Assembly (NCBI GenBank): GCA_016946835.1
Contig: JACVTC010000008.1
Location: 582,501-630,000 of the forward strand
Reading direction: 5' to 3'
DNA: 47,500 bases
Origin: Neocallimastix lanati (nom. inval.)
Lineage: Eukaryota > Neocallimastigomycota > Neocallimastigomycetes > Neocallimastigales > Neocallimastigaceae
A program made the position numbers and the translations under genes. A model generated the notes under the pieces. It made no database searches. It was not told the DNA's origin and saw nothing but the letters and a program-made list of their open reading frames with translations. Each line of letters starts with the position of its first letter. Position 1 is the first letter of the stretch. Shown piece after piece: positions 2,843 through 37,299 of the stretch.

Positions 2843-4360
2843 TTAAGCCTTACCAGCCATCTTAGCATCCATTTCATCAATACTAAGACCCTTACATTCA
2901 ATAACATAGAATTGAGAGTAAATCCAGGCAAGGAGACAGGCAGCTGCGAAAAGAAGGAAAGTTCTGGTAGACCAGGCTTTCATAAGAGCTGGTCCAACAA
3001 AGGCAATAATCCAGTTGTTAAGGAAGTTAGAAACCGTACCAACAGCAGAACCCTTAACTCTGACACGAAGTGGGAAAACTTCGGCTTGGTAAACCCATGG
3101 AACTGGTCCCCAGGTCCAGGCGAAAGAGAAGACGAATAAGAAGACTGAAGCAACGGCAAGATATTGCCATAATTTACCATTGTGAGTTTGAGTAGAACAA
3201 GCCCAAGTAGAAATGTGGAAGACCATCATCATAAGAGCTCCAACAACTAATAAAGTCTTACGACCTAATTTTTCAATACCCCACATACCTGGGAAGGTAG
3301 AAACGAAGTTGACAAAGTTGTTAATAATTGGAAGAACAACAGTAGACATGAACTTAGAGAAACCAATTTCATCGTAAATTTGTGATTGGTAGTACATAAT
3401 GACATTAATACCAGTCCATTGTTGGAAAAGTTGCATTAAGAAAGTAATGAAGGTACGACGACGAATAACTGGTGAGAAAAGTTCACCGAAGGATGAAGAA
3501 CCAGCAGCACGAGTAGCTGCAACATCTTCTTGAATAGCCTTAAGCTCACTTTGGACAAGTTCATCAGAAGTGGAAGCAGCATTAAGTTTAGCTAAAACTT
3601 CAACAGCTTCTTCATCACGATCCTTAGAACATAACCAACGTGGTGATTTTGGAAGGAAACTCATGAGAATGGCAAGACCAAGACCTGGAATAATTTGGAA
3701 TAAAAGTGCAAATCTCCATTCAAAGTTAGCAACTTCGCCCCAGATATTATCTCTCTTTATACCTAAACCTTCTGGAGAAGAGTTAGTGTAGTACCAGACA
3801 ATAGAGTTAATGATGGCGGCAACAATAATACCGAAAGTGGTCATAAGTTGGTAGCAAGAAGAAAGAGTACCTCTGATCTTAGCTGGTGCGACTTCAGAAA
3901 TATAAGTTGGACAAAGGACACCATTACAACCAATGGAAAGACCAGTAATAAGACGACCAATGGCAATCATAATCCAAGAACGAGCAGAGAGACCTTGAAT
4001 GATAGCACCACATGTGAAAATACAGGCTCCAATCATAATAGTTCTTTGACGACCATACTTTTCACCAAGGTATGTAGCCATAAGAGCACCACAAAGTGCA
4101 CCAAGAACGAAACTAGAAGTAATAATACCTTCAAGAGTAGCCTTGTTATCAGCTTCTGTTAACTTACGGTACATCATCTTAGCCTTATCAGTAGTATCCT
4201 TACCATTTTCATCGAGAGCATCACCATTCCAACTATGGAATTTGAAGAAGATACGGAAAGCATCCATAACAAGGACGACATTCATGACACCTACTTCATA
4301 ACCGAAAAGAAGACCACCAAATGAGGCAGTAAGTGCAACTAAAAATTGAAAACTATTCAT
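2843..4360 (-). CDS. MFS sugar transporter (sugar porter family), array copy 1
   Basis: A 505-residue intronless protein of the major facilitator superfamily, expected to be a plasma-membrane monosaccharide transporter with 12 helices. Signatures in order are GGLLFGYE (15-22, helix 1), GEKYGRQR (99-106, cytoplasmic loop 2-3), GRLITGLSIG (135-144), PTYISEVAPAKIRG (151-164), PKSPRWL (237-243), QQWTGIN (313-319, helix 7 sugar site), GRKTLL (366-371) and WGPVPW (417-422, helix 10). Length is normal for the family. The loop after helix 1 (about residues 40-75) is long and charged, plausibly extracellular. The helix-1 GGLLFG fits the G-G/F-xxx-G pattern reported for xylose-compatible yeast transporters, so hexose and/or pentose uptake is likely; exact substrate unknown. 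Codons are strongly biased (GGT, GCT, CGT, AAG), suggesting high expression. Residue 353 is Val. The start is supported by identical ATG context in all six copies. Confidence 0.95.
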   Translation of the reverse strand: MNSFQFLVALTASFGGLLFGYEVGVMNVVLVMDAFRIFFKFHSWNGDALDENGKDTTDKAKMMYRKLTEADNKATLEGIITSSFVLGALCGALMATYLGEKYGRQRTIMIGACIFTCGAIIQGLSARSWIMIAIGRLITGLSIGCNGVLCPTYISEVAPAKIRGTLSSCYQLMTTFGIIVAAIINSIVWYYTNSSPEGLGIKRDNIWGEVANFEWRFALLFQIIPGLGLAILMSFLPKSPRWLCSKDRDEEAVEVLAKLNAASTSDELVQSELKAIQEDVAATRAAGSSSFGELFSPVIRRRTFITFLMQLFQQWTGINVIMYYQSQIYDEIGFSKFMSTVVLPIINNFVNFVSTFPGMWGIEKLGRKTLLVVGALMMMVFHISTWACSTQTHNGKLWQYLAVASVFLFVFSFAWTWGPVPWVYQAEVFPLRVRVKGSAVGTVSNFLNNWIIAFVGPALMKAWSTRTFLLFAAACLLAWIYSQFYVIECKGLSIDEMDAKMAGKA

Positions 4361-4615
4361 TTTATAGTTTTATTTTTTTTTTTTTAAACTTAAATTAATT
4401 ATTATAAACAATATTTGATTTTTTAAAAATTTTTATTTTTAGAAAAATTTTGATCCTTTTATATGAAATACTCTCCAAGAATAATAATATAAATATTTGT
4501 AATATAGAAAATATTAAATTAATAATTATATTTAAAGAATATTAAGAATTTTCAAATAAAATAATATTTGATTTTAATTAATAATGCTCTAGGAGTTTCG
4601 AATAATATAAAATCA
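4361..4615 (-). promoter_or_regulatory. Conserved promoter of transporter copy 1
   Basis: On the coding strand, TATAAAAG (plus-strand 4456-4463) lies about 100 bp before the ATG. Further upstream is the block CTCTAGGAGTTTCGAA (4587-4602), containing the TTCGAA palindrome and a near-palindromic CTCTAGGAG. Both are preserved in all six array copies within otherwise drifting A/T sequence. The TATA assignment fits consensus; the upstream block is a candidate activator site of unknown factor. Confidence 0.65.
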
Positions 4616-4727
4616 AATTAATTAAAATAAAAAACAAAAAAGAATTTTATAATTTAATTTATTTGTGTAACTTTTTAAAACAATAAATTCTATTATTTAA
4701 AGTTATTTTTTAAAATTAAATCTATTA

Positions 4728-4940
4728 ATGAAAATTATGAAAAAAAGTGAAATTTTTAATCTTATTAAATATTACTATAAATTTAATAAATATAAATATG
4801 ATAGTGATAATAATAAAAATAATAGAAATTGTAAAAATGTTAAAAGTAATGATAATATAATAATAGTAATAAGACTAAAACTAATAATAAAATTAATAAA
4901 TTATTATTATTGTAAATATTCCATAATTATTATTACATGA
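4728..4940 (+). CDS. Small divergent ORF upstream of copy 1 (hypothetical, possibly truncated)
   Basis: A 70-residue lysine/asparagine/isoleucine-rich ORF starting with MKIMKKSEIFNL. The first ~25 residues recur upstream of all six transporter copies, always pointing away from the transporter, while the C-terminal part varies in length and frame between copies. This looks like the remnant 5' end of a gene sharing a bidirectional promoter, or a non-coding conserved segment. No family was recognised. Confidence 0.3.
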   Translation: MKIMKKSEIFNLIKYYYKFNKYKYDSDNNKNNRNCKNVKSNDNIIIVIRLKLIIKLINYYYCKYSIIIIT

Positions 4941-6310: not shown

Positions 6311-6434
6311 TATATATTAATGCTAATGATAAATATATTATGCAATATTTGAAAAATATATGTAAAAATAAAATTTATAACAAATCAAATGTTAAAATAT
6401 TAGTAAATAAGATTATGTACATTTTTTTTTTTTT

Positions 6435-8397
6435 GACTTAGATAAAAGTTTATTTAATATATAATAATAATAAAATTATATGACTTAAATGAAAAATAAA
6501 AAATAAGATACATGAAATGAAATATTATATATTATATAATTATAAAAGTGCGTTAGTATCAATAGTTTCTAATTTTTCCCATTCATAGATGATAACACTA
6601 CGTCCATTATTGCGAGTAATAATTTCAGTATTAGTGTTATCAACCGAATCTGTATCAGATCCTTTTGCCGGGAGGTGAAAATCCATGCCTTATCAATTCG
6701 ACGTCGACGCTCTTAGTAACGGTTGATTCAATAGATTCAAAGGAATACCATTTCATTATCAATCTAAAAGATCGGCAAATTAATGGTATTACATTTGTTA
6801 GAAACTACGCAATCCCCACAAAATACGGAGCAGTCGACAAAGTTGAACTTTATTTAAAAATATTGTCAACTAATTGTCTTTGTTCCCCATCAATTAACTT
6901 TTAATTTGTTCATATATTGAACGCCCGCCTAGAAGAGCACTCAATATAAAATAATAAATATTATTATCATAATCCTTTTCTGAATCTAGAGAAACATCTA
7001 AGGATTTTTGTTCAATTATCATTACAAACTTCAAAAAGAGATCATCTAGAAAAGGTAAAGTCTTATATCTGTAATTTTCCAATTCTTTACAGGCAAAGAT
7101 CCAGTGAGAAAAGCTAGGTACACTAACACCACAACATGGGCAACATTTAGAGCCATCTTCTGAGACTATTTTTCTTTTAATGGAAATACTTAATGTCAAC
7201 TTTAAAACCACACCTAATTCGAGAAATCCAAAAAGAATCCCAACTGATACTTAGGATATTGAAATGTTAAGTTTTTGATTTCTGAAATAAATCTAAAATC
7301 ATTCTCCTTGTAAATAAATTGCTTTTTTTTTTAACTTTTTTGAGGGTTTGAAAACATTTCTTTCCCAATAAAACTTATTTATTTCACTTGTTTTTTTACC
7401 ATTTATTTCTTATCATCCAAAGTCTTTGATTCTTTAGTCTATGAATGAGATGATTAATAATATTATTAGTGAGATAATTAATAATACATGATAAATTTTT
7501 CCATTTTACTAAAGCAGCCTAAATTGAGATATAACACAGACAGCTGAAAAAGGAGGTATTCTCAATTCACAAGTAATATCATAGAGACTAACATAAGAAT
7601 TACGAGATTTAAATCCATTACTCCAATAAAGTCCTCTATTAATAATTTTTTGAGCTTTAAAGCATCTACTCTTATTTGAACTAAATAGAAGAGCATAATA
7701 TAAAACAAGACTAAGAATAAAGGAAATTAAAACATATTTCTCCAATGGGAGAGGAATAGATCTATTAACTAATAAAGAAATCGAAAGTACGAATTTATCT
7801 TGTCATTTAAATTACTGTTTAATTTGGATTGTATAGGTTTCAATGATAAAGATTCATCAAATGGAATACCAAGATAAGTATAGTTGTCAGTTTTAGGTAA
7901 GTTGTTATTACCAATATAGAAAGATGGATCTTCATAATTTATTGGTTTAACAAAATTTTTTTCGTTTTCACAACAAGAGTATCACACTTATTAATTCCAA
8001 AAGTCGTTTCATTTTTAATAGCCCATTCATGAATCTTATTAAAAATTTTCTTAAGTGCTTGTTTAGATTGAGCAACTAAAACAATATTTATCACAATCAT
8101 TCAATACATCGTTAATGAATAAATTGAATAATATAGGAGATAGAGGGCATCCTTGTCTAACAGCACGATTAATCGAAAATTCTTCTGAGAGATTACCATT
8201 TAAAAAAGCACGAGCTTTAGAGGAGAGATAAAGATTCCTTAAAAACAGATGACATTTACCTCTAATTCCTAAGTTATATAATTTGATCAGAATTTTAAAG
8301 ATAGGTACTGAATCATAGGCTTTTTTAAAATTAAGAAAAGCAGGATAACTGAAATTTCCTTGAAAATTTTCTTCTTTGACATATTTCCCTAATTGAA
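6435..8397 (-). pseudogene. LINE (non-LTR) retrotransposon ORF2, C-terminal half, inactive
   Basis: Minus-strand translations give reverse-transcriptase fingers/palm (8396 to ~8095: KAYDSVP ... AVRQGCPLSPILFNLFIND), then ~8090-7750 with HEWAIKNETTFGINKCDTL and YTYLGIPFD, the thumb region (7745-7509), and a CCHC zinc finger (CPCCG ... SHWIFAC) followed by LLGGRS (7211-6894). A tail ending WEKLETIDTNALL and a stop lies near 6543. A 13-base T run (6422-6434) is the poly(A) tail. It is dead: the sequence reads LNFKKAYDS where the first catalytic Asp is expected, the YADD box is deleted near 8090-8105, and several frameshifts occur. The 5' end is truncated. Confidence 0.88.
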
Positions 8398-8400
8398 ATA

Positions 8401-9655
8401 TATAAACTTATACTTTTTATTTTATAAAATTTTAAATTTCCATAATTACAAAATTTTAATACAAAAATTTTCAAAAAAGTTTTAAATTTTTTTTAATATA
8501 GTTTTATATAAATATTATAAAAATATTTATTTATTATAATTAATATTTAACAATTCCTCAAGAACAATTCTAAGAATAATATCTTTTTTTTTTTTTTTTT
8601 ATTTTGTTTAATATTTATTTTATTAGAATAATTTTTTTTAATTCAGTAACAAACAAATATTTCTACAATATATATTTTTTTTATTAGCTTTAATATAAAA
8701 ATTTGTAAATGAAGAATCATTTTATCAAGAATTATTATTATTGAAAATTAACTATAATTTTTCTACATCATTTATAATGATATTAAATAACCTAACCTTA
8801 TAACATAAATATTTATATAACTTTCTAGTCAGCATATATATTTAATATATATAATTCTATATCAATATAAATAGTTATTATATATAAGCAATATAAGCAT
8901 ATATTGGTATATATCATTTCATATTCAATTAATTTTTTTAATTATTTATTCCTTTCTTTAGTCAATCTTTTAAAAATATCAAAATTAAATAATATCTATT
9001 GTTCATTACTTTAATGAAAATTAAAATAAAAAAAATACTATATATAATGTAGTTAATATTTATTTTAAATAAATATTAAAGAATAAAATAAAAAGATAAT
9101 TATACAAATTATAAAAAAATATTATATATATTATATTTTGAATTTTGAATTTTGAATTTTTTGATACATTTTAAAATTAAAAAGGAATAATATGGATATT
9201 TTTTTTTAAATAAATTAATATTAATATATAATAATAATTAAATTTATTTATTCAAATATAGAATAAATAAATTATAAATTTGGATTTAGACATAATAATT
9301 ATGAAATTTTGTATTTCTACTTAATTTTATTTTTTAAACAAAATAAATCAGAAATTAAAAATAATTGATATCAATTTATATTAAATATATTATTTTTTGT
9401 TTTTATTAAAATATAGTAGAATTAATTAATATTTAATTTATTTAATAATATAATTAAAATAAAACAAAATCTGTATTAACTATAATCTTTTATAATTTTT
9501 ACAGATCCGGAAAAACTTCTTTTTTTTCTAATTTTTTAAATTATTAAATATATATTAGAAATAAATAATATTTAATTAAGAAATAATTATAATTGAAATA
9601 ATAAGGTAAAGTTATATTAATATTTTATGATAAAATGAGAATTCGGTCACAATTT
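8401..9655. repeat. Block R, copy b
   Basis: This is the same AT-rich repeat as at 5110-6310, re-entered directly after the LINE fragment at TTATACTTTTTATTTTATAA. It runs through the CAATTCCTCAAGAACAATTC and AAATGAAGAATCATTTTATC landmarks to the GATAAAATGAGAATTCGG end, then joins the Copia pol fragment. No genes were seen. Confidence 0.6.
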
Positions 9656-11727: not shown

Positions 11728-12567
11728 ATATAATAAATTTAATATAATTTATAATATAAAATTAATATATAATAAATATAAAATAAACGTGAAATAAATT
11801 TGAAATTAAATAAAAAATATGAAATAAATATTATATAATTAATTATAACTATTTTATATTTATGTAATTAAAACAATTAAACGTTTTTTTCAAATTTAGT
11901 AATAATATTTACTATAATATAGAACTTTTAATAAATTAAATATTATTGTAAAAAGTCATTTCACATAATAAAATATATATATAAAATTCATAATATATTA
12001 ATATTTTATAATTATTAGAAAATTTTTATCTTTTTCTTCTATTTTATTTTTTATTTTTTTATTTTTTTTATATTATTATTTATTATTTGGTATTATTAAA
12101 TTTTTACATTTTTCTTAAATTAATATTTTTGTTACATTTTTTATTTAAATTTATTTTATATTTATTTTAATTTTTATTTATTTTAAGGTTTTTTCTTTTT
12201 ATTTAGTTGTTTTTTAATTTATCTTATTTTAATTTATTAATTTACGATTTTATCATAAATAACTATTAAATTTACTTTTATTAAAGAGTAAAATTTAATT
12301 ATTTTCTATTAATATAATTTTCAATTAGTTGCATCATCTTCTTTTCTTATTTAAAAGACATTGAATTTTTTATTTTATTTGTCAAATATCAATATTTCTA
12401 TATTTTCATATTTCCATATTATCATATAAAATATGAAAAATGAAATATTAATATTTTATTGAATTTTTATTTTGGATATTAAATGGTACCATCTAATTAT
12501 ACAATGATACCTTCTATTTATAATTTATTTTTATAATTCATTTAATGCCTTATAATGTCATTTTTAT
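11728..12567 (-). repeat. 3' flank of transporter copy 2
   Basis: AT-rich sequence shared with the 3' sides of copies 1, 3 and 5, with no gene. An imperfect inverted repeat GGTACCAT / ATGATACC spans 12485-12511, starting about 57 bp beyond the stop, and TATAAAATATGAAA dyads lie near 12425. Confidence 0.55.
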
Positions 12568-14085
12568 TTAAGCCTTACCAGCCATCTTAGCATCCATTTC
12601 ATCAATACTAAGACCCTTACATTCAATAACATAGAATTGAGAGTAAATCCAGGCAAGGAGACAGGCAGCTGCGAAAAGAAGGAAAGTTCTGGTAGACCAG
12701 GCTTTCATAAGAGCTGGTCCAACAAAGGCAATAATCCAGTTGTTAAGGAAATTAGAAACAGTACCAACAGCAGAACCCTTAACTCTGACACGAAGTGGGA
12801 AAACTTCGGCTTGGTAAACCCATGGAACTGGTCCCCAGGTCCAGGCGAAAGAGAAGACGAATAAGAAGACTGAAGCAACGGCAAGATATTGCCATAATTT
12901 ACCATTGTGAGTTTGAGTAGAGCAAGCCCAAGTGGAAATGTGGAAGACCATCATCATAAGAGCTCCAACAACTAATAAAGTCTTACGACCTAATTTTTCA
13001 ATACCCCACATACCTGGGAAGGTAGAAACGAAGTTGACAAAGTTGTTAATAATTGGAAGAACAACAGTAGACATGAACTTAGAGAAACCAATTTCATCGT
13101 AAATTTGTGATTGATAGTACATAATGACATTAATACCAGTCCATTGTTGGAAAAGTTGCATTAAGAAAGTAATGAAGGTACGACGACGAATAACTGGTGA
13201 GAAAAGTTCACCGAAAGATGAAGAACCAGCAGCACGAGTAGCTGCAACATCTTCTTGAATAGCCTTAAGTTCACTTTGGACAAGTTCATCAGAAGTGGAA
13301 GCAGCATTAAGTTTAGCTAAAACTTCAACAGCTTCTTCATCACGATCCTTAGAACATAACCAACGTGGTGATTTTGGAAGGAAACTCATGAGAATGGCAA
13401 GACCAAGACCTGGAATAATTTGGAATAAAAGTGCAAATCTCCATTCAAAGTTAGCAACTTCTCCCCAGATATTATCTCTCTTTATACCTAAACCTTCTGG
13501 AGAAGAGTTAGTGTAGTACCAGACAATAGAGTTAATGATGGCGGCAACAATAATACCGAAAGTGGTCATAAGTTGGTAGCAAGAAGAAAGAGTACCTCTG
13601 ATCTTAGCTGGTGCGACTTCAGAAATATAAGTTGGACAAAGGACACCATTACAACCAATGGAAAGACCAGTGATAAGACGACCAATGGCAATCATAATCC
13701 AAGAACGAGCAGAGAGACCTTGAATGATAGCACCACATGTGAAAATACAGGCTCCAATCATAATAGTTCTTTGACGACCATACTTTTCACCAAGGTATGT
13801 AGCCATAAGAGCACCACAAAGTGCACCAAGAACGAAACTAGAAGTAATAATACCTTCAAGAGTAGCCTTGTTATCAGCTTCTGTTAACTTACGGTACATC
13901 ATCTTAGCCTTATCAGTAGTATCCTTACCATTTTCATCGAGAGCATCACCATTCCAACTATGGAATTTGAAGAAGATACGGAAAGCATCCATAACAAGGA
14001 CGACATTCATGACACCTACTTCATAACCGAAAAGAAGACCACCAAATGAGGCAGTAAGTGCAACTAAAAATTGAAAACTATTCAT
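12568..14085 (-). CDS. MFS sugar transporter, array copy 2
   Basis: A 505-residue protein identical to copy 1, including Val353, and intronless. Nucleotide differences from copy 1 are synonymous (for example Thr442 ACT instead of ACG, Asn445 AAT instead of AAC, Ser384 TCC instead of TCT). The spacing from copy 1 is larger than elsewhere in the array because the intervening unit holds a LINE fragment, a second block R and a LINE insertion. The ORF is fully open with all sugar-porter motifs intact, so it should be functional. Confidence 0.95.
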   Translation of the reverse strand: MNSFQFLVALTASFGGLLFGYEVGVMNVVLVMDAFRIFFKFHSWNGDALDENGKDTTDKAKMMYRKLTEADNKATLEGIITSSFVLGALCGALMATYLGEKYGRQRTIMIGACIFTCGAIIQGLSARSWIMIAIGRLITGLSIGCNGVLCPTYISEVAPAKIRGTLSSCYQLMTTFGIIVAAIINSIVWYYTNSSPEGLGIKRDNIWGEVANFEWRFALLFQIIPGLGLAILMSFLPKSPRWLCSKDRDEEAVEVLAKLNAASTSDELVQSELKAIQEDVAATRAAGSSSFGELFSPVIRRRTFITFLMQLFQQWTGINVIMYYQSQIYDEIGFSKFMSTVVLPIINNFVNFVSTFPGMWGIEKLGRKTLLVVGALMMMVFHISTWACSTQTHNGKLWQYLAVASVFLFVFSFAWTWGPVPWVYQAEVFPLRVRVKGSAVGTVSNFLNNWIIAFVGPALMKAWSTRTFLLFAAACLLAWIYSQFYVIECKGLSIDEMDAKMAGKA

Positions 14086-14330
14086 TTTATAGTTTTATTT
14101 TTTTTAAACTTAACTTAAATTAATTATTATAAACAATATTTGATTTTTTAAAAAATTTTATTTTTAGAAAAATTTTGGTCCTTTTATATGAAATACTCTC
14201 CAAGAATAATAATATAAATATTTGTAATATAGAAAATATTAAATTAATAATTATATTTAAAGAATATTAAGAATTGTCAAATAAAATAATATTTGATTTA
14301 ATTAATAATGCTCTAGGAGTTTCGAATAAT
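14086..14330 (-). promoter_or_regulatory. Conserved promoter of transporter copy 2
   Basis: Coding-strand TATAAAAG at plus 14181-14188, about 100 bp from the ATG, and the CTCTAGGAGTTTCGAA block at 14311-14326. The spacing of both elements to the ATG matches copy 1. Confidence 0.65.
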
Positions 14331-14451
14331 ATAAAATCAAATTAATTAAAATAAAAAACAAAAAAGAATTTTATAATTTAATTAATTTGTGTAACTTTTT
14401 AAAACAATAAATTCTATTATTTAAAGTTATTTTTTAAAATTAAATCTATTA

Positions 14452-14568
14452 ATGAAAATTATGAAAAAAAGTGAAATTTTTAATCTTAATAAATATTATT
14501 ATAAATTTAATAAATATAAATATGATAGTGATAATAATAAAAATAATAATAATTATAAAAATGTTTAA
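14452..14568 (+). CDS. Small divergent ORF upstream of copy 2 (38 codons)
   Basis: Starts with the conserved MKIMKKSEIFNL peptide, with Asn for Ile at residue 13, and stops after 38 codons in this copy. The DNA after the stop still matches the longer versions, so the difference is a small indel. Hypothetical and possibly not translated. Confidence 0.25.
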   Translation: MKIMKKSEIFNLNKYYYKFNKYKYDSDNNKNNNNYKNV

Positions 14569-14940
14569 AGTAATGATAATATAATAATAGTAATAAGACT
14601 AAAACTAATAATAAAATTAATAAATTATTATTATTATTGTAAATATTCCAAAATTATTTTTACATGACATTAAAAATTTAATAATATTTTCCATTAATTC
14701 CTTAATAACTATATACTATTATTTATAATAATTAATTATAAAGAATTTAATAAATTATTATGTAATATGACAACTACAATACTATTTCTATTCAAGTAAA
14801 ATATTGAGTAATAACAACTAGAACTATCTTTTTTCCAATTATCATTTATCCACATATTTTCCTTATTAACTAAATATTAAATATTTAAAAATATTAAAAT
14901 GATAAATGAAATAAAACTTTAATTATTATTAATTTTGAAG

Positions 14941-16205
14941 AAAAGTTACATATATCATTTATACTTTTTAATTTATAAAATTTAAATTTTCCATAATTAC
15001 AAAAATAACATATTTATTTAATTCTATTACAAAAATATTCAAAAATTTTTAATAGAATAATTTTTTTTAATATAATTTTATATAAATATTATAAAAATAA
15101 TTATTTATTATTATTAATATTTAACTATTCCTCAAGAACAATTTTAAGAATAGTTTTTTTGTTTTTTTTTTGCTTAATATTTATTTTATTATATTAGATT
15201 ATTTAATTATTTAACTATATTATTATTAGCTCTAATATAAAGATTTCTAAATGAAGAATCATTTTACCAAGAAATGTTATAATTAGAAATTAACCTCATT
15301 AAATATTCATTTAATTTTAGTAATTCTTTATTTTTTACTTTAGTCAATCTTAAATGTTATCTATTGTTCATTACTTCAATAAAAATTATAATTTCTACTA
15401 AATAATTATTAATGAATTAAAAAATAAAAAAAATTTTAATATCATATATAATATAATTAATATTTATTTTAAATAAATATTAATAGATAAAAAAAATAAG
15501 ACATAAATATATATATTATAAATAAATAAATATAAATATATAAATATATTTATTTTAAATTTGTTGATAAATTTTAAAATTGAAATGAAATAACATTAAA
15601 GTTTTTTTTTGTAAAAATAAAAAATTAATAATAATAATAAATTTTATTTATTTTAAATATAAAATAAATAGGATATAAATTTGTATCAAGAAATAATAAT
15701 TATGAAATTTAAATTTTGTATTTCTACATAATTTTATTTTTTAAACAAAATAAATTAGAATGATTTATTTTATTTTATTTTATTTTATTTTATTTTATTT
15801 TATTTTATTTTATTTTATTTTATTTTATTTTATTTTATTTTATTATTTATTTTTTTTAATAAAATTAATGAATAATAAATATTATTTCTGAAATAACTTT
15901 AATATTAATTGATATGAATTTTTATTAAAAATATTATTTTTTGTTTTATTAAAATAGAGTAGAATTAATTAATATTTAATTTATTTAATAATATAATTAT
16001 AATAAAACAAATCTGTATTAACTATAATCTTTTATAATTTTTACAAATCCAGAAAAACTTACTTTTTTTCAAATTTTTTAAATTATTAAATATATATTAG
16101 AAATAAATAATATTTAATTAAGAAATAATTATAATTGAAATAATAAGGTAAAGTTATATTAATATTTTATGATAAAATGAGAATTCGGTTATATTTTTAT
16201 ATATT
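14941..16205. repeat. Block R, copy c
   Basis: AT-rich repeat with the same landmarks as the copies at 5.1 and 8.4 kb. It contains a (TTTTA)n array of about 80 bp (15765-15845) exactly where copy a has a 41-base T run. No genes were seen. Confidence 0.6.
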
Positions 16206-20152: not shown

Positions 20153-20269
20153 ATGAAAATTATGAAAAAAAGTGAAATTTTTAATCTTATTAAATATTAC
20201 TATAAATTTAATAAATATAAATATGATAATAACATTAATAAAAATAATAGTAACTATAAAAATGCTTAA
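20153..20269 (+). CDS. Small divergent ORF upstream of copy 3 (38 codons)
   Basis: MKIMKKSEIFNLIKYY start as in the other copies, with the KYDNNINKNNSNYKN variant shared with copies 4 and 6. It stops after 38 codons. Hypothetical. Confidence 0.25.
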   Translation: MKIMKKSEIFNLIKYYYKFNKYKYDNNINKNNSNYKNA

Positions 20270-23278: not shown

Positions 23279-23399
23279 TAATAGATTTAATTTTAAAAAT
23301 AACTTTAAATAATAGATATTTATTGTTTTAAAAAGTTACACAAATTAATTAAATTAAAAAATTCTTTTTTGTTTTTTATTTTAATTAATTTGATTTTAT

Positions 23400-23655
23400 A
23401 TTATTCGAAACTCCTAGAGCATTATTAATTAAATCAAATATTATTTTCTTTGACAATTCTTAATATTCTTTAAATATAATTATTAATTTAATATTTTCTA
23501 TATTACAAATACTTATATTATTATTCTTGGAGAGTATTTCATATAAAAGGACCAAAATTTTTCTAAAAATAAAATTTTTTTTTTTTTTTTAAAATCAAAT
23601 ATTGTTTATAATAAATTAATTTAAGTTAAGTTTAAAAAAAAAATAAAACTATAAA
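23400..23655 (+). promoter_or_regulatory. Conserved promoter of transporter copy 4
   Basis: The reverse orientation of the CTCTAGGAG block (TTCGAAACTCCTAGAG, 23404-23419) and TATAAAAG at 23542-23549, 114 bp before the ATG. The extra distance comes from a longer T/A run just upstream of the leader. Confidence 0.65.
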
Positions 23656-25173
23656 ATGAATAGTTTTCAATTTTTAGTTGCACTTACTGCCTCATTTGGT
23701 GGTCTTCTTTTCGGTTATGAAGTAGGTGTCATGAATGTCGTCCTTGTTATGGATGCTTTCCGTATCTTCTTCAAATTCCATAGTTGGAATGGTGATGCTC
23801 TCGATGAAAATGGTAAGGATACTACTGATAAGGCTAAGATGATGTACCGTAAGTTAACAGAAGCTGATAACAAGGCTACTCTTGAAGGTATTATTACTTC
23901 TAGTTTCGTTCTTGGTGCACTTTGTGGTGCTCTTATGGCTACATACCTTGGTGAAAAGTATGGTCGTCAAAGAACTATTATGATTGGAGCCTGTATTTTC
24001 ACATGTGGTGCTATCATTCAAGGTCTCTCTGCTCGTTCTTGGATTATGATTGCCATTGGTCGTCTTATCACTGGTCTTTCCATTGGTTGTAATGGTGTCC
24101 TTTGTCCAACTTATATTTCTGAAGTTGCACCAGCTAAGATCAGAGGTACTCTTTCTTCTTGCTACCAACTTATGACCACTTTCGGTATTATTGTTGCCGC
24201 CATCATTAACTCTATTGTCTGGTACTACACTAACTCTTCTCCAGAAGGTTTAGGTATAAAGAGAGATAATATCTGGGGTGAAGTTGCTAACTTTGAATGG
24301 AGATTTGCACTTTTATTCCAAATTATTCCAGGTCTTGGTCTTGCCATTCTCATGAGTTTCCTTCCAAAATCACCACGTTGGTTATGTTCTAAGGATCGTG
24401 ATGAAGAAGCTGTTGAAGTTTTAGCTAAACTTAATGCTGCTTCCACTTCTGATGAACTTGTCCAAAGTGAACTTAAGGCTATTCAAGAAGATGTTGCAGC
24501 TACTCGTGCAGCTGGTTCTTCATCTTTCGGTGAACTTTTCTCACCAGTTATTCGTCGTCGTACCTTCATTACTTTCTTAATGCAACTTTTCCAACAATGG
24601 ACTGGTATTAATGTCATTATGTATTATCAATCACAAATTTACGATGAAATTGGTTTCTCTAAGTTCATGTCTACTGTTGTTCTTCCAATTATTAACAACT
24701 TTGTCAACTTCATTTCTACCTTCCCAGGTATGTGGGGTATTGAAAAATTAGGTCGTAAGACTTTATTAGTTGTTGGAGCTCTTATGATGATGGTCTTCCA
24801 CATTTCTACTTGGGCTTGCTCTACTCAAACTCACAATGGTAAATTATGGCAATATCTTGCCGTTGCTTCAGTCTTCTTATTCGTCTTCTCTTTCGCCTGG
24901 ACCTGGGGACCAGTTCCATGGGTTTACCAAGCCGAAGTTTTCCCACTTCGTGTCAGAGTTAAGGGTTCTGCTGTTGGTACGGTTTCTAACTTCCTTAACA
25001 ACTGGATTATTGCCTTTGTTGGACCAGCTCTTATGAAAGCCTGGTCTACCAGAACTTTCCTTCTTTTCGCAGCTGCCTGTCTCCTTGCCTGGATTTACTC
25101 TCAATTCTATGTTATTGAATGTAAGGGTCTTAGTATTGATGAAATGGATGCTAAGATGGCTGGTAAGGCTTAA
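23656..25173 (+). CDS. MFS sugar transporter, array copy 4
   Basis: 505 residues, intronless, Ile353 as in copy 3. It is the first plus-strand copy, so it is divergently oriented to copy 3 about 3.9 kb away. By eye it differs from copy 5 at 14 of 1518 bases, 13 silent and one giving V/I353, and from copy 6 at 16, 15 silent. All sugar-porter motifs are intact. Confidence 0.95.
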   Translation: MNSFQFLVALTASFGGLLFGYEVGVMNVVLVMDAFRIFFKFHSWNGDALDENGKDTTDKAKMMYRKLTEADNKATLEGIITSSFVLGALCGALMATYLGEKYGRQRTIMIGACIFTCGAIIQGLSARSWIMIAIGRLITGLSIGCNGVLCPTYISEVAPAKIRGTLSSCYQLMTTFGIIVAAIINSIVWYYTNSSPEGLGIKRDNIWGEVANFEWRFALLFQIIPGLGLAILMSFLPKSPRWLCSKDRDEEAVEVLAKLNAASTSDELVQSELKAIQEDVAATRAAGSSSFGELFSPVIRRRTFITFLMQLFQQWTGINVIMYYQSQIYDEIGFSKFMSTVVLPIINNFVNFISTFPGMWGIEKLGRKTLLVVGALMMMVFHISTWACSTQTHNGKLWQYLAVASVFLFVFSFAWTWGPVPWVYQAEVFPLRVRVKGSAVGTVSNFLNNWIIAFVGPALMKAWSTRTFLLFAAACLLAWIYSQFYVIECKGLSIDEMDAKMAGKA

Positions 25174-29183: not shown

Positions 29184-29440
29184 TATTAATCTTATAAAAT
29201 ATATATTAAATAAAATAAAAAAAAATATTATTCTTATAATTGTTCTTGAGGATTAGTTACATATTAATAATAATAAATAAATATTTATATAATATTCTAT
29301 TAAAATTTTATGAAAATTTTGGTATAAATAAATTAATATATTATTAAAAATAAATATATTTCAAAGAAATTATAAATAATATTAAAATGAGATTAATTAA
29401 ATAATTATGGAAAATTAAAATTTTTTAATTAAAAAGTATA
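29182..29440. repeat. Block R, copy e, remainder
   Basis: Resumes block R after the Copia element (TTGTTCTTGAGGATTAG near 29240-29260, AAAAGTATAAATGAT near 29430), confirming that the element split this copy. Confidence 0.55.
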
Positions 29441-29748
29441 AATGATTTATTTAATTTTTTTTCCAAATAATAATAATTAAAGTTTTATTCACTTAAATAA
29501 TATCATTGTAATATATTTAAATATTTAATATTTAGTTAATAGGAAAATATGTGGATGAATGATAATAGGAAAAAGGATAATTTTATTTGTTACTAAATAT
29601 TATACTTGTACTGAAAAAGTATTGTATGTCATTTATGTCATATTTCATAATAATTTATTAAATTATTAATAATTAATTATTATAAATAATAGTATATAGT
29701 TATTTAGGAATTAATGGAAAATAATAATATATTATTAAATTTTTAATG

Positions 29749-29961
29749 TCATGTAAAAATAATTTTGGAATATTTACAATAATAATAATTTATTAATTTT
29801 ATTATTAGTTTTAGTCTTATTACTATTATTATATTATCATTACTTTTAACATTTTTACAATTTCTATTATTTTTATTATTATCACTATCATATTTATATT
29901 TATTAAATTTATAGTAATATTTAATAAGATTAAAAATTTCACTTTTTTTCATAATTTTCAT
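29749..29961 (-). CDS. Small divergent ORF upstream of copy 5 (70 aa)
   Basis: MKIMKKSEIFNLIKYYYKF start and nearly the same 70-residue sequence as the version upstream of copy 1, differing mainly at the last residues. Conserved length between these two distant copies is the best hint that it might be translated. Function unknown. Confidence 0.3.
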   Translation of the reverse strand: MKIMKKSEIFNLIKYYYKFNKYKYDSDNNKNNRNCKNVKSNDNIIIVIRLKLIIKLINYYYCKYSKIIFT

Positions 29962-30084
29962 TAATAGATTTAATTTTAAAAAATAACTTTAAATAATAGA
30001 ATTTATTGTTTTAAAAAGTTACACAAATTAATTAAATTATAAAATTCTTTTTTGTTTTTTATTTTAATTAATTTGATTTTATAT

Positions 30085-30329
30085 TATTCGAAACTCCTAG
30101 AGCATTATTAATTAAAATCAAATATTATTTTATTTGACAATTCTTAATATTCTTTAAATATAATTATTAATTTAATATTTTCTATATTACAAATATTTAT
30201 ATTATTATTCTTGGAGAGTATTTCATATAAAAGGACCAAAATTTTTCTAAAAATAAAATTTTTTAAAAAATCAAATATTGTTTATAATAAATTAATTTAA
30301 GTTAAGTTTAAAAAAAATAAAACTATAAA
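30085..30329 (+). promoter_or_regulatory. Conserved promoter of transporter copy 5
   Basis: TTCGAAACTCCTAGAG block at 30087-30102 and TATAAAAG at 30226-30233, 104 bp before the ATG. Leader ends AAAACTATAAAATG as in all copies. Confidence 0.65.
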
Positions 30330-31847
30330 ATGAATAGTTTTCAATTTTTAGTTGCACTTACTGCCTCATTTGGTGGTCTTCTTTTCGGTTATGAAGTAGG
30401 TGTCATGAATGTCGTCCTTGTTATGGATGCTTTCCGTATCTTCTTCAAATTCCATAGTTGGAATGGTGATGCTCTCGATGAAAATGGTAAGGATACCACT
30501 GATAAGGCTAAGATGATGTACCGTAAGTTAACAGAAGCTGATAACAAGGCTACTCTTGAAGGTATTATTACTTCTAGTTTCGTTCTTGGTGCACTTTGTG
30601 GTGCTCTTATGGCTACATACCTTGGTGAAAAGTATGGTCGTCAAAGAACTATTATGATTGGAGCCTGTATTTTCACATGTGGTGCTATCATTCAAGGTCT
30701 TTCTGCTCGTTCTTGGATTATGATTGCCATTGGTCGTCTTATCACTGGTCTTTCCATTGGCTGTAATGGTGTCCTTTGTCCAACTTATATTTCTGAAGTC
30801 GCACCAGCTAAGATCAGAGGTACTCTTTCTTCTTGCTACCAACTTATGACCACTTTCGGTATTATTGTTGCCGCCATCATTAACTCTATTGTCTGGTACT
30901 ACACTAACTCTTCTCCAGAAGGTTTAGGTATAAAGAGAGATAATATCTGGGGTGAAGTTGCTAACTTTGAATGGAGATTTGCACTTTTATTCCAAATTAT
31001 TCCAGGTCTTGGTCTTGCCATTCTCATGAGTTTCCTTCCAAAATCACCACGTTGGTTATGTTCTAAGGATCGTGATGAAGAAGCTGTTGAAGTTTTAGCT
31101 AAACTTAATGCTGCTTCCACTTCTGATGAACTTGTCCAAAGTGAACTTAAGGCTATTCAAGAAGATGTTGCAGCTACTCGTGCTGCTGGTTCTTCATCCT
31201 TCGGTGAACTTTTCTCACCAGTTATTCGTCGTCGTACCTTCATTACTTTCTTAATGCAACTTTTCCAACAATGGACTGGTATTAATGTCATTATGTACTA
31301 TCAATCACAAATTTACGATGAAATTGGCTTCTCTAAGTTCATGTCTACTGTTGTTCTTCCAATTATTAACAACTTCGTTAACTTCGTTTCTACCTTCCCA
31401 GGTATGTGGGGTATTGAAAAATTAGGTCGTAAGACTTTATTAGTTGTTGGAGCTCTTATGATGATGGTCTTCCACATTTCCACTTGGGCTTGTTCTACTC
31501 AAACTCACAATGGTAAATTATGGCAATATCTTGCCGTTGCTTCAGTCTTCTTATTCGTCTTCTCTTTCGCCTGGACCTGGGGACCAGTTCCATGGGTTTA
31601 CCAAGCCGAAGTTTTCCCACTTCGTGTCAGAGTTAAGGGTTCTGCTGTTGGTACGGTTTCTAATTTCCTTAACAACTGGATTATTGCCTTTGTTGGACCA
31701 GCTCTTATGAAAGCCTGGTCTACCAGAACTTTCCTTCTTTTCGCAGCTGCCTGTCTCCTTGCCTGGATTTACTCTCAATTCTATGTTATTGAATGTAAGG
31801 GTCTTAGTATTGATGAAATGGATGCTAAGATGGCTGGTAAGGCTTAA
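30330..31847 (+). CDS. MFS sugar transporter, array copy 5
   Basis: 505 residues, intronless, Val353. It carries the silent pair Thr442 ACG with Asn445 AAT, a combination not seen in any other copy, plus private silent changes such as GGC for the Gly of EIGF. It shares several silent sites with copy 6 (TTC/GTT at Phe349-Val350). All motifs intact. Confidence 0.95.
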   Translation: MNSFQFLVALTASFGGLLFGYEVGVMNVVLVMDAFRIFFKFHSWNGDALDENGKDTTDKAKMMYRKLTEADNKATLEGIITSSFVLGALCGALMATYLGEKYGRQRTIMIGACIFTCGAIIQGLSARSWIMIAIGRLITGLSIGCNGVLCPTYISEVAPAKIRGTLSSCYQLMTTFGIIVAAIINSIVWYYTNSSPEGLGIKRDNIWGEVANFEWRFALLFQIIPGLGLAILMSFLPKSPRWLCSKDRDEEAVEVLAKLNAASTSDELVQSELKAIQEDVAATRAAGSSSFGELFSPVIRRRTFITFLMQLFQQWTGINVIMYYQSQIYDEIGFSKFMSTVVLPIINNFVNFVSTFPGMWGIEKLGRKTLLVVGALMMMVFHISTWACSTQTHNGKLWQYLAVASVFLFVFSFAWTWGPVPWVYQAEVFPLRVRVKGSAVGTVSNFLNNWIIAFVGPALMKAWSTRTFLLFAAACLLAWIYSQFYVIECKGLSIDEMDAKMAGKA

Positions 31848-32690
31848 ATAGAAATGACATTATAAGGCATTAAATGAATAATGAAAATAAATTCTAAATT
31901 GCAGATACCATGATATAATTATATGGTATCATTTCAAATCTAATATAATAATTCAATAAAATATTAATATTTCATATTTCATATTTTATATGATAATATG
32001 TAAATATAAAAATATTGATATTTAACAAATAAAGTAAAAAAAAATGAAATGTCTTTTAAATAGGAAAAGAAGATAATGCAACTAATTGAAAATTATATTA
32101 ATAGAAAATAATTAAATTTTACTCTTTATTAAAAGTAAATTTAATAGTTATTTATGATAAAATCGTAAATTAATAAATTAAAATAAGGTAAATTAAAAAA
32201 CAACTAAATATAAAGAAAAAACATTAAAATAAATAAAAATTAAAATAAATATAAAATAAATTTAAATAAAAAATGTAACAATAATATTAATTTAAGAAAA
32301 ATGTAAAAATTTAATAATACCAAATAATAAATAATAATATAAAAAAATAAAAAAATAAAAAATAAAATAGAAGAAAAAGATAAAAATTTTCTAATAATTT
32401 TAAAATATTAATATATTATGAATTTTATATATACATTTTATTATGTGAAATGACTGTGTACAATAATATTTAATTTATTAAAAGTTCTATATTATATTAA
32501 ATATAATTACTAAATTTTATAAAAAATTTTTATAACAAAGAAAAGGAAGAATATGTTATATTTATATGTTTAATTATTTTAATTACATAAATATAAAATA
32601 ATTAAAATTAATTATATTGTATTTATTTTATATTTATTTTATATTTATTATATATTATAAATTATATTAAATTTATTATATTTCTAATTT
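31848..32690 (+). repeat. 3' flank of transporter copy 5
   Basis: AT-rich and non-coding. A perfect 8-bp dyad GATACCAT (31904-31911) / ATGGTATC (31923-31930) lies about 57 bp past the stop codon. The sequence matches the copy 3 flank in reverse orientation up to the Copia relic boundary near 32690. Confidence 0.6.
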
Positions 32691-33740
32691 CATAATTAAA
32701 TTTTTAATATTCACCAGTTATAAAAGTATTATCGATATGTAAAGATTATAATCCTATTAATTTATTATCTTTATTATATTTATAAAATAATTATTTGACT
32801 GATTTACATTAGTTGAAACCAATTGAATTTAAGTAATTAGTTATCTCTTCATTCCACATACGTCCAGCTTGTTTTAATATATATAATGCCTTTTTTTAAT
32901 AATTATACTTTGCTTTTGCTGTAATTTTTTATCTCCTCTTAGAATTTTAACATACATTGATTCGTTTAAATTACATATAAATATGCAGTCTTTTATATCT
33001 AATTGCTTTAAATTCCATTTATTTATTAATGCGATTGCGATAATTCTTAAACTATCTGATTGTGTTGTAGGAGAAAATGTTGAAATAAAATTTTCACCTT
33101 CTTTCTGTTGACAACCTTTAGCTATTAATCTAGCTTTTTTAATATTGTCATTTTTTTATTACTAAAACCCATCTTTGGTCTATAATATTTTTTTTTTGTA
33201 TGTATTATTAATGCTAATCGCCATCATTACAATTTTATCGTATATATTTTTCATTTCAATTTTTTTAGCTATGCTACATTCTTTTAAATCTTTTGAATTT
33301 ATAGCTTCCTCATATGTACTTGGATATTTTTTGTTATAATATTGAAGATTTTATGTTTTTTATTAATATTTTAATTTTAGATATTATTTCTTTTCTTATA
33401 TTTAGTGTTTGAGTATTTGAATCATTATCTGAGTCGTAATTATCTTGAATTCTTTTTTTACTACTAATATTATTATCTAAGAAGTCATTAAATTTAATAT
33501 TATTATTGTTAATATTATTATTATTTTTGATATTACCATTATTATGATAATTATTATTATTATTATAGTTATTATTATTATTATAGTTATTATTATTATT
33601 ATTATTATTATAGTTATTATTTTAATTATAATTATTATAGATATTATTATCCTTATAATTATTATAATTATTATTATTATTATTATTAAAATTTATCAGT
33701 TGTATATTAGTACTTTCCTTCAATCGATATATTATGGTAA
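32691..33740 (-). pseudogene. Copia pol relic (unit 5-6), best preserved RT of the three
   Basis: Minus-strand frames give KARLIAKGCQQKEGENF, STFSPTTQSDSLRI, INKWNLKQLDIKDC, KQAGRMWNEEITNYL and a SLHIDNTFITGE segment where LYVDD is expected, so the catalytic Asp pair reads D-N. Upstream in sense direction (33400-33735) is the Asn-rich linker. Unlike the relics at 9.7 and 16.2 kb it has no telomere-like patch. It lies in the same position and relative orientation with respect to its transporter as in the left half. Confidence 0.85.
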
Positions 33741-34905
33741 TTAACATTACTATATAAAATTGTGACCGAATTCTCATTTTATCATAAAATATTAATATAA
33801 CTATACCTTATTATTTCAAATATAATTATTTCTTAATTAAATATTATTTATTTCTAATATATATTTAATAATTTAAAAAAAAGAAGTTTTTCCGGATCTG
33901 TAAAAATTATAAAAGATTATAGTTAATACAGATTTTGTTTTATTTTAATTATATTATTAACTAAATTAAATATTAATTAATTCTACTCTATTTTAATAAA
34001 AACAAAAAATAATATTTTTAATAAAAATTGATATCAATTATTTTTAATTTAAGAAAATAATATTTATAATTAATTAATTTTATTATAAAAAAAAAAAATT
34101 TTTTTATTTTGTTTAAAAAATATAATTAAGTAGAAATACAAAATTTAAATTCATAATTATTATTTCTAGATACAAATTTATAATCTGTTTACTTCATATT
34201 TGAATAAATAAATTTAATTATTATTATATATTAATATTATATTTAAAAAAAAAAAAAAAACATCAATATTATTTCATTTTAATTTGAAAATATATCAAAA
34301 AATTCAAAATAAATATATATATATAATATATATTTATATATATTTATTTATAATATATATATGTTTTATTTCTTTTATCTATTAATATTTATTTAAAATA
34401 AATATTAATTATATTATATATAATATTATAATTTTTTTATTTTTTAATTCATTAATAATTATTTATTAGAAATTATAATTTTTATTGAAGTAATGAACAA
34501 TAGATAACATTTAAGATTTACTAAAGTAAAAAATAAAGAATAACTAAAATTAAATGAATATTAAATGAGGTTAATTTCTAATTATAACATTTCTTGGTAA
34601 AATGATTCTTCATTTAGAAATCTTTATATTAGAGCTAATAATAAAATATATTGTTAAATAATTAAATAGTCTAATTTAATAAAATAAATATTAAGCAAAA
34701 AAAAAACAAAAAAACTATTCTTAAAATTATTCTTGAGGAATAGTTAAATATTAATAATAATAAATAAATATTTTTATAATATTTATATAAAATTAAATTA
34801 AAGAAATTATATTCTATTAAAAATTTTTGAATATTTTTGTATTAAAATTTTGTAATTATGGAAAATTAAAATTTTATAAATTAAAAAGTATAAATGATAT
34901 ATGTA
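33741..34905. repeat. Block R, copy f
   Basis: Reverse-orientation copy from the CCGAATTCTCATTTTATC end through TTTTCCGGATCTGTAAAA, AAATGATTCTTCATTTAG and TTCTTGAGGAATAG to AAAAAGTATAAATGATATAT. Non-coding. Confidence 0.6.
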
Positions 34906-35195
34906 ACTTTTCTTCAAAATTAATAATAATTAAAGTTTTATTTCATTTAATGCATAGTATCATTTTAATATTTTTAAATATTTAATATTTAGTTAAAAGG
35001 AAAATATGTGGATGAATGATAATTGGAAAAAAGATAGTTCTAGTTGTTATTACTCAATATTTTACTTGAATAGAAATAGTATTGTAGTTGTCATATTACA
35101 TAATAATTTATTAAATTATTAATAATTAATTATTATAAATAATTATATATAGTTATTTAGGAATTTATGGAAAATAATAATATATTATTAAATTT

Positions 35196-35414
35196 TTACT
35201 GCCATGTAAAAATAATTTTGGAATATTTACAATAATAATAATTTATTAATTTTATTATTAGTTTTAGCCTTATTACTATTATTATATTATCATTACTTTT
35301 AACATTTTTATAGTTACTATTATTTTTATTAATGTTATTATCATATTTATATTTATTAAATTTATAATAATATTTAATAAGATTAAAAATTTCACTTTTT
35401 TTCATAATTTTCAT
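35196..35414 (-). CDS. Small divergent ORF upstream of copy 6 (72 aa)
   Basis: MKIMKKSEIFNLIKYYYKF start with the KYDNNINKNNSNYKN middle of copies 3 and 4 and the VKSNDNIIIVIRLKLIIKL tail of copies 1 and 5, a mosaic of the two versions. Hypothetical. Confidence 0.3.
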   Translation of the reverse strand: MKIMKKSEIFNLIKYYYKFNKYKYDNNINKNNSNYKNVKSNDNIIIVIRLKLIIKLINYYYCKYSKIIFTWQ

Positions 35415-35537
35415 TAATAGATTTAATTTTAAAAAATAACTTTAAATAATAGAATTTATTGTTTTAAAAAGTTACACAAATTAATTAAATTATAAAATTC
35501 TTTTTTGTTTTTTATTTTAATTAATTTGATTTTATAT

Positions 35538-35781
35538 TATTCGAAACTCCTAGAGTATTATTAATTAAATCAAATATTATTTTATTTGACAATTCTTAAT
35601 ATTCTTTAAATATAATTATTAATTTAATATTGTTATATTACGAATAATTATATTATTATTCTTGGAGAGTATTTCATATAAAAGGACCAAAATTTTTCTA
35701 AAAATAAAATTTTTTAAAAAATCAAATATTGTTTATAATAATTAATTTAAGTTAAGTTTAAAAAAAAAATAAAACTATAAA
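35538..35781 (+). promoter_or_regulatory. Conserved promoter of transporter copy 6
   Basis: TTCGAAACTCCTAGAG at 35540-35555 and TATAAAAG at 35677-35684, 105 bp before the ATG. The block is preserved although nearby A/T sequence has changed. Confidence 0.65.
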
Positions 35782-37299
35782 ATGAATAGTTTTCAATTTT
35801 TAGTTGCACTTACTGCCTCATTTGGTGGTCTTCTTTTCGGTTATGAAGTAGGTGTCATGAATGTCGTCCTTGTTATGGATGCTTTCCGTATCTTCTTCAA
35901 ATTCCATAGTTGGAATGGTGATGCTCTCGATGAAAATGGTAAGGATACTACTGATAAGGCTAAGATGATGTACCGTAAGTTAACAGAAGCTGATAACAAG
36001 GCTACTCTTGAAGGTATTATTACTTCTAGTTTCGTTCTAGGTGCACTTTGTGGTGCTCTTATGGCTACTTATCTTGGTGAAAAGTATGGTCGTCAAAGAA
36101 CTATTATGATTGGAGCCTGTATTTTCACATGTGGTGCTATCATTCAAGGTCTCTCTGCTCGTTCTTGGATTATGATTGCCATTGGTCGTCTTATCACTGG
36201 TCTTTCCATTGGTTGTAATGGTGTCCTTTGTCCAACTTATATTTCTGAAGTCGCACCAGCTAAAATCAGAGGTACTCTTTCTTCTTGCTACCAACTTATG
36301 ACCACTTTCGGTATTATTGTTGCCGCCATCATTAACTCTATTGTCTGGTACTACACTAACTCTTCTCCAGAAGGTTTAGGTATAAAGAGAGATAATATCT
36401 GGGGAGAAGTTGCTAACTTTGAATGGAGATTTGCACTTTTATTCCAAATTATTCCAGGTCTTGGTCTTGCCATTCTCATGAGTTTCCTTCCAAAATCACC
36501 ACGTTGGTTATGTTCTAAGGATCGTGATGAAGAAGCTGTTGAAGTTTTAGCTAAACTTAATGCTGCTTCCACTTCTGATGAACTTGTCCAAAGTGAACTT
36601 AAGGCTATTCAAGAAGATGTTGCAGCTACTCGTGCTGCTGGTTCTTCATCCTTCGGTGAACTTTTCTCACCAGTTATTCGTCGTCGTACCTTCATTACTT
36701 TCTTAATGCAACTTTTCCAACAATGGACTGGTATTAATGTCATTATGTACTATCAATCACAAATTTACGATGAAATTGGTTTCTCTAAGTTCATGTCTAC
36801 TGTTGTTCTTCCAATTATTAACAACTTCGTTAACTTCGTTTCTACCTTCCCAGGTATGTGGGGTATTGAAAAATTAGGTCGTAAGACTTTATTAGTTGTT
36901 GGAGCTCTTATGATGATGGTCTTCCACATTTCCACTTGGGCTTGCTCTACTCAAACTCACAATGGTAAATTATGGCAATATCTTGCAGTTGCTTCAGTCT
37001 TCTTATTCGTCTTCTCTTTCGCTTGGACCTGGGGACCAGTTCCATGGGTTTACCAAGCCGAAGTTTTCCCACTTCGTGTCAGAGTTAAGGGTTCTGCTGT
37101 TGGTACTGTTTCTAACTTCCTTAACAACTGGATTATTGCCTTTGTTGGACCAGCTCTTATGAAAGCCTGGTCTACCAGAACTTTCCTTCTTTTCGCAGCT
37201 GCCTGTCTCCTTGCCTGGATTTACTCTCAATTCTATGTTATTGAATGTAAGGGTCTTAGTATTGATGAAATGGATGCTAAGATGGCTGGTAAGGCTTAA
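35782..37299 (+). CDS. MFS sugar transporter, array copy 6
   Basis: 505 residues, intronless, Val353. It is the most silently diverged of the plus-strand copies (for example ACT TAT for Thr-Tyr at 96-97, AAA for Lys161, GCA for Ala402) yet encodes an unchanged protein. Thr442 ACT with Asn445 AAC is unique to this copy. It is the last copy of the array; homology to the other 3' flanks is disturbed right after AATGACATTA. Confidence 0.95.
   Translation: MNSFQFLVALTASFGGLLFGYEVGVMNVVLVMDAFRIFFKFHSWNGDALDENGKDTTDKAKMMYRKLTEADNKATLEGIITSSFVLGALCGALMATYLGEKYGRQRTIMIGACIFTCGAIIQGLSARSWIMIAIGRLITGLSIGCNGVLCPTYISEVAPAKIRGTLSSCYQLMTTFGIIVAAIINSIVWYYTNSSPEGLGIKRDNIWGEVANFEWRFALLFQIIPGLGLAILMSFLPKSPRWLCSKDRDEEAVEVLAKLNAASTSDELVQSELKAIQEDVAATRAAGSSSFGELFSPVIRRRTFITFLMQLFQQWTGINVIMYYQSQIYDEIGFSKFMSTVVLPIINNFVNFVSTFPGMWGIEKLGRKTLLVVGALMMMVFHISTWACSTQTHNGKLWQYLAVASVFLFVFSFAWTWGPVPWVYQAEVFPLRVRVKGSAVGTVSNFLNNWIIAFVGPALMKAWSTRTFLLFAAACLLAWIYSQFYVIECKGLSIDEMDAKMAGKA

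Follow-up and report, generated by a model that had tools for sequence, protein, structure and literature searches.

Near-identical sugar porter genes in mixed-strand arrays of the anaerobic gut fungus Neocallimastix lanati and their probable homogenisation by gene conversion

A stretch of 47,500 nucleotides from the anaerobic gut fungus Neocallimastix lanati (the window, C741:582501-630000; the assembly has 199 Mb in 762 contigs, and the array is named C741 after the window's contig) harbours six intact open reading frames (ORFs) in the strand order ---+++. Each is an intronless coding sequence (CDS) for a sugar porter of 505 amino acids (aa). Copies A (2843-4360), B (12568-14085) and C (18274-19791) are on the minus strand, and copies D (23656-25173), E (30330-31847) and F (35782-37299) on the plus strand; all six were recognised as ORFs and by nucleotide comparison, and copy A also by Pfam. 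The six CDSs were 98.95-99.67% identical, with a single variable residue among the proteins (V353, but I353 in C and D). These data confirmed the six intact and near-identical transporters, three per strand, of the preliminary description of this DNA.

Copy A matched the Pfam Sugar_tr profile with 394.9 bits (residues 8-499, profile positions 1-450 of 452), and every copy matched two sugar-transport signature patterns, at residues 358 and 138. PESPR was changed to PKSPR and PETKG to IECKG in 6/6 copies, and the N-half GRR motif, read off the sequence, was GRQ. The claim that every sugar-porter motif is present was slightly too strong, as the signature patterns match while these three motifs deviate. 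The closest relatives of solved structure were the plant proteins STP6 and STP10, with homology over residues 3-498. The C741 protein is a major facilitator superfamily (MFS) sugar porter. Its Glu22 was aligned to STP10 Asp42, an acidic residue which we take to be the proton site of transmembrane segment 1 (TM1), and proton-coupled sugar import is likely because Glu22 occupies this position.

The six CDSs differed at 26 sites, 25 of them silent. If about 20-23% of neutral changes are expected to be silent, the probability of observing one amino-acid change or fewer was 1e-15 to 1e-16, a value that treats sites as independent even though conversion may spread changes among copies; the direction is not in doubt, and the copies are under strong purifying selection. 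Codon choice was narrow across the six copies (Pro CCA 78/78, Gly GGT 210/240, AAG favoured over AAA, CG-type Arg all CGT), as expected in highly expressed genes. The fraction of C-ending codons was 0.53 in C741, 0.33 in C746 (which prefers AAA over AAG) and 0.71 in C48, compared to 0.14-0.29 in five ORFs of at least 300 aa; two GH6 ORFs were at 0.43 and 0.29. A 416-aa ORF in the window (43671-44921), which matched ArfGap below the threshold and had a low GC content at third codon positions (GC3), served as a low-bias comparison gene. GC-biased conversion was considered as the source of the raised GC3 and rejected: the choice is codon-specific (Gly GGC 3/240, CGC 0/78, Pro CCC 0/78), which fits translational selection better.

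Start-to-start spacings from A to F were 9.7, 5.7, 5.4, 6.7 and 5.5 kb. The 9.7-kb A-B interval contains a dispersed element of approximately 2 kb (6422-8425, minus strand) with a reverse-transcriptase fragment (RVT_1, 8063-8407, minus strand); no element was identified in the 6.7-kb interval, where none of the three ORFs had a Pfam hit. The RVT_1 element was found at a further 39 or more places at 86-90% (40 of 2326 first-look candidates were scored), including copies less than 10 kb from the arrays C12, C48 and C79. At the window's edge (1-1292, minus strand), Retrotran_gag_4 and two RVT_2 retroelement pieces were detected, all under the Pfam cut-offs.

The 400 bp upstream of the ATG differed by 0-3.1% over the 15 pairs of C741 copies, in agreement with the common promoter flank reported before. 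The repeat context, by contrast, is not equal around every copy. The main alignments of copy F to all five others end 24 bp past the stop codon, with a weaker resumption at 76-83%. Its 3' flank was 12.8-16.4% different from those of the other five, which differ mutually by 3.7-11.9%, and its CDS was just slightly more distant than theirs. In copy D, collinear homology to the others was limited to about -540 to +2123 from the ATG. Homologous stretches in the array thus range from approximately 2.7 kb (D) to approximately 8 kb (B-C against F-E).

The longest mirrored block comprises a left arm (12543-20714: B, spacer, C) and a right arm (29402-37323: E, spacer, F) that aligns to it in reverse, with an identity of 0.89-0.998 per 500 bp of aligned bases (at most 100 gap columns). 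The axis of this block, at approximately 25.0 kb, is within copy D. The divergent C-D centre (19792-23655) has about 0.5 kb of common promoter on each side and about 2.9 kb of unmirrored DNA between. The A-B spacer is also related to the B-C spacer, but is interrupted by the RVT_1 element, and the match of the D-E spacer to the B-C spacer is confined to its two ends. Three minus-strand copies do face three plus-strand copies, as the term mirror-image array implied, but the mirror is loose. Judged from the alignments, the 3:3 symmetry does not come from one mirror event, because the D-E spacer matches B-C only at its ends and the homology of D is short. One mirror event pairing A-F, B-E and C-D was rejected as a candidate: it gave 30 coding differences, tied fourth to fifth of 15 pairings (27-38), mirror partners are not nearest relatives by CDS, and a strict mirror needs the B-C spacer paired with D-E, while its full-length match is the E-F spacer. 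The B-C/F-E block may go back to an inverted block duplication, or to a single inverted copy with later tandem growth to either side. Of the 64 possible strand orders, 2 have three copies per strand and a single switch, so that ---+++ is no great improbability when an array is considered by itself.

The window array is one of 16 sugar-porter arrays detected in this genome. A protein search gave at least 85 family matches, 74 at 88-100% identity and 11 (contig C32) at 73-74%; 82 of the 85 were without internal stop, and the hit lists are lower bounds. Two extra DNA hits bring these to 87 places, which at 12-kb clustering form the 16 arrays (70 genes) and 17 singles. A Pfam Sugar_tr genome scan (9 of 198 candidates scored) was kept out of the counts. 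Copies inside arrays are mostly 3-7 kb apart, and strand orders at 20-kb clustering include --+++, -+++, ---+, --++-, -++- and +++--++-+, among others. Intergenic 1-kb windows often had 8-20% GC. At C48:49820-59559, two divergent copies 6.7 kb apart show no difference in their 1518 coding bases or in the 400 bp to either side; they represent either an inverted duplication of very recent date or a copy produced in assembly. At C566:135550-195037, two divergent frames, each with three GH11 domains, lie between sugar-porter genes, a layout that suggests mixed uptake/hydrolase neighbourhoods.

A tree was made from 48 CDSs of the 87 places (arrays C566 and C32 were unsampled and one incomplete C746b copy was omitted). 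Its 14 contig groups need 13 changes, which is the minimum (shuffled mean 36.5), and each group forms one clade. Mean synonymous divergence (dS) inside 12 groups was 0.00-0.05 in 11 and 0.10 in the C746b pair. Among the best 60 of 91 between-group pairs, 52 had a dS of 0.21-0.48 and eight were below 0.1 (six among C12/C48/C666/C79a at 0.003-0.04, C746a/b at 0.08 and C3/C532 at 0.09).

In several arrays the CDSs are far more alike than their flanks. Flank divergence was taken as substitutions in the 400 bp upstream and downstream of the CDS (C4_208152 was omitted from flank and orientation comparisons), and unrelated AT-rich control DNA gave 0.268 substitutions. Mean coding dS was 0.015 in C532, 0.046 in C57 and 0.031 in C4, against upstream/downstream flank values of 0.196/0.195, 0.215/0.250 and 0.160/0.185 respectively. 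Most of the 26 gene pairs in C57, C532, C4 and across the C3 pairs were 14-29% different in both 400-bp flanks, close to the level of the unrelated control. The divergent neighbours in C3 are flank partners only 0.3-6% different, indicating that flanks can stay alike after a young duplication. The step in divergence falls at or near the start and stop codons, abruptly in C57 and gradually over the first 50-200 bp in C3, C532 and C500. Identical CDSs occur beside promoters 11-13% different: C79_843288 and C79_831543 had 0/1518 coding differences with 0.000 downstream and 0.113 upstream, and the C666 pair had 0/1518 with 0.000 and 0.114. Between the separate contigs C48 and C666, 15/1518 coding positions differed, with flanks at 0.27-0.28. 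The GH11 centre pair in C17 differed by 3.5% in coding sequence, 2.8% upstream and 24% downstream. A homogenised tract with diverged flanks was strong in C57, C532, C4, C3, C48/C666 and C79 and weak in C741; promoter divergence was 0.016 in C741 and 0.013 in C500. In C3 and C532, the nearest copy by flank seems to differ from the nearest by CDS. All this suggests that near-identical need not mean recent.

Likeness extends across orientations. In C741, dS was 0.0303 for same-strand and 0.0300 for opposite-strand pairs, and over seven arrays the mean difference between the two classes was 0.0035 (permutation p 0.09). Unequal crossing-over acts between direct repeats, and inverted copies are not homogenised by it without rearrangement. 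That opposite-strand copies are approximately as alike as same-strand copies favours gene conversion over unequal crossing-over. We therefore consider it probable, from these sequence comparisons, that the array copies were homogenised by ectopic gene conversion together with purifying selection after local duplication. Arrays would grow through local segment duplication in either orientation. Ectopic conversion, mainly within arrays and across the mirror axis, would with purifying selection keep the copies near-identical, while flanks escape and diverge. Conversion would then reach only the still-homologous CDS, and since diverged flanks leave the CDS as the sole remaining homology, sharp edges of likeness would result. 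In C741 the promoter would have been homogenised as well; in other arrays the promoters differ. The probable benefit would be an ample stock of interchangeable copies of a single highly expressed and probably proton-coupled importer for plant-cell-wall sugars.

Several observations weigh against this interpretation. Opposite-strand copies were less alike than same-strand copies in C57 (0.054 vs. 0.033) and C500 (0.021 vs. 0.014), and 3 of the 26 pairs mentioned above had an upstream flank at only 7-10%. In C741 the upstream flank (0.016) was less divergent than dS (0.030), so that, taken by itself, this array is also compatible with recent duplication. Within it, the case for conversion rests on the 3' flank of F and on silent sites with conflicting groupings, and these groupings could also stem from recurrent mutation. 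In C3 and C532, the disagreement between flank and CDS comes down to a handful of changes (about 5 vs. 6, and 3 vs. 6, silent differences). Furthermore, AT-rich flanks might change at a higher rate than silent sites that are subject to codon selection.

The most serious alternative is that each array was amplified recently and independently by duplication, with dosage selection alone and without conversion. It would explain why every array sampled forms a single clade of low dS, and why promoter divergence does not on average exceed dS in C741, C500 and C79b. We consider it unlikely, however, since flanks are unlike in most C57, C532 and C4 pairs, in C3 c-versus-d, in C48/C666 and in several C79 pairs, and since identical CDSs beside promoters 11-13% different would need repeated breakpoints at start and stop codons. 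An assembly or polishing artefact, in which mixed paralogue reads lend the CDSs a false likeness or the inversion stems from a misjoin, is less probable still. Near-identical 1.5-kb blocks are indeed a hard case for polishing, but the copies retain their own silent changes, the almost exclusively synonymous variation is unlike random error, spacers and flanks differ from copy to copy, and arrays recur on many contigs (those with size given, 0.48-1.88 Mb). Spread by reverse transcription of mRNA, carrying the CDS without its promoter, is highly improbable: the intronless CDS, the likeness confined to it in some arrays and the dispersed reverse-transcriptase element inside the C741 array would suit it, but copies mostly 3-7 kb apart in arrays, flanks that align within arrays over longer stretches than unrelated DNA does, and the 2-4 kb that C741 units have in common around the gene do not.

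The plant-wall hydrolase sets of this genome are large as well (127 GH11 and 88 GH6 matches), and the fungal dockerin (CBM_10) gave 1440 first-look candidates, of which all 150 scored were matches (0/14 in control genomes); these contents mark the genome as that of an anaerobic gut fungus (Neocallimastigomycota). Array layout was tested by pooling the sugar-porter, GH6 and GH11 families at 12-kb clustering; the dockerin list was kept out of the pooling due to its overlap with GH6, and eight of the 88 GH6 rows (fragments) and four of the 127 GH11 matches (three weak, one a repeat domain of an already counted gene) were omitted. In the 47 pooled arrays, neighbours were 85 tandem, 35 divergent and 17 convergent. 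Where the end genes were on different strands, 22 arrays had the order -..+ against 4 with +..- (sign test, one-sided p 0.00027), and the ratio was 18:4 at 8-kb and 23:5 at 20-kb clustering. By family, it was 10:1 in sugar porters, 7:2 in GH6 and 5:1 in GH11 (12 kb). For the dockerin list by itself, the ratio at 12 kb was 7:2 (p 0.09). The outward-facing idea came from the sugar-porter and dockerin lists themselves, and GH43 and GH48 were later taken as new families. GH43 had 17 clustered genes with 3 divergent and 3 convergent pairs (net 1:1 by eye; including the omitted fragment C6:165363 leaves C6 without net change and adds one divergent pair), and GH48 had 2 divergent and 0 convergent pairs (net 2:0, by eye). 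Given these two results, an outward-facing bias in the arrays of the three families is probable, short of independent proof. GH6 and GH11 each have one ---+++ array (C761, with 2/6 matches partial, and C17). Two GH11 arrays show strict strand alternation, unlike the mirror arrays (C113:105240-123050, -+-+-+, and C15:620768-629921, +-+-). A 1869-aa frame at C554:363523-368088 contains six consecutive GH11 domains of equal score, perhaps indicating repeat homogenisation within a protein too.

Selection for uptake dosage, as proposed in the preliminary description, is plausible from the sequences. It fits copy number and intactness, because 25/26 variable sites are silent, codon use is biased and at least 74 close copies exist. 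A large stock of one importer also suits a fungus freeing sugars from cellulose and xylan. The symmetry, which had been taken as a sign of dosage, lost this meaning: the mirror is loose, other arrays of this gene are lopsided, and GH6 and GH11 are laid out similarly. The parallel with hexose-transporter expansions in yeasts is incomplete, as it overlooks the probable gene conversion (CDSs alike, flanks near saturation). An alternative benefit would be that the promoters in C57, C532, C79 and C48 vs. C666 diversify the regulation of a near-constant protein. More tentatively, and with considerable doubt, transporters, GH6 and GH11 might be kept in outward-facing mirror arrays like dispersed miniature Y-palindromes, in which conversion across the mirror resets the CDS against decay and promoters are free to diverge. 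If so, one protein would gain many regulatory inputs in an extremely AT-biased lineage. The gut-fungus lineage is apparently asexual. Excerpts of PMC8480134 hold no confirmation of this.

The C741 protein resembles the plant STP and bacterial GlcP/XylE proteins in its STP6/STP10 homology, signature patterns and acidic TM1 residue, and differs in having Glu where those have Asp and in its degenerate PETKG motif. Excerpts of PMC5168858 report 12 MFS sugar-uptake proteins in Neocallimastix, sharing organism group and function class with ours; the present genome carries 74 or more close copies of a single type. N. lanati is credited with 1,754 transporters in excerpts of PMC8561657, and those of neither paper mention array layout. 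Among the open-access titles and abstract openings listed, none dealt with the layout of arrays in gut fungi or with gene conversion there. The components are known (sugar porters, concerted evolution, palindrome conversion, inverted amplification), and within that literature they did not appear combined on a genome scale in these fungi. Gut-fungus transcriptome or short-read studies may undercount transporters and enzymes.

Trypanosoma brucei has tandem arrays in concerted evolution, according to excerpts of PMC1855330. Multi-copy arrays, gene trees with homogenisation and inferred conversion are shared with it; its arrays are tandem and polycistronic, while the gut-fungus genes have mixed, often divergent orientation and a promoter each. 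Inverted amplification, in excerpts of PMC4689423, likewise yields inverted extra copies of a chromosome segment, with a proposed start at short interrupted inverted repeats and inverted triplications as product. The C741 C-D centre differs in its approximately 2.9 kb of unmirrored DNA; BLAST detected there none of the short interrupted inverted repeats of origin-dependent inverted-repeat amplification (ODIRA), although the junction may have decayed. Most work on concerted evolution concerns head-to-tail arrays, in which conversion is hard to distinguish from unequal crossing-over. Mirror arrays separate both, as homogenisation across the axis is possible only by conversion, which seems to be at work at many protein-coding loci, often ending near CDS edges. 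A further counterpart is provided by the palindromes of Y chromosomes with their arm-to-arm gene conversion (excerpts of PMC3723533 and PMC3403216). Inverted copies appear to be kept alike by conversion in both systems; whole Y arms are more than 99.9% alike, while likeness in the gut fungus is often limited to the CDS and occurs at many loci.

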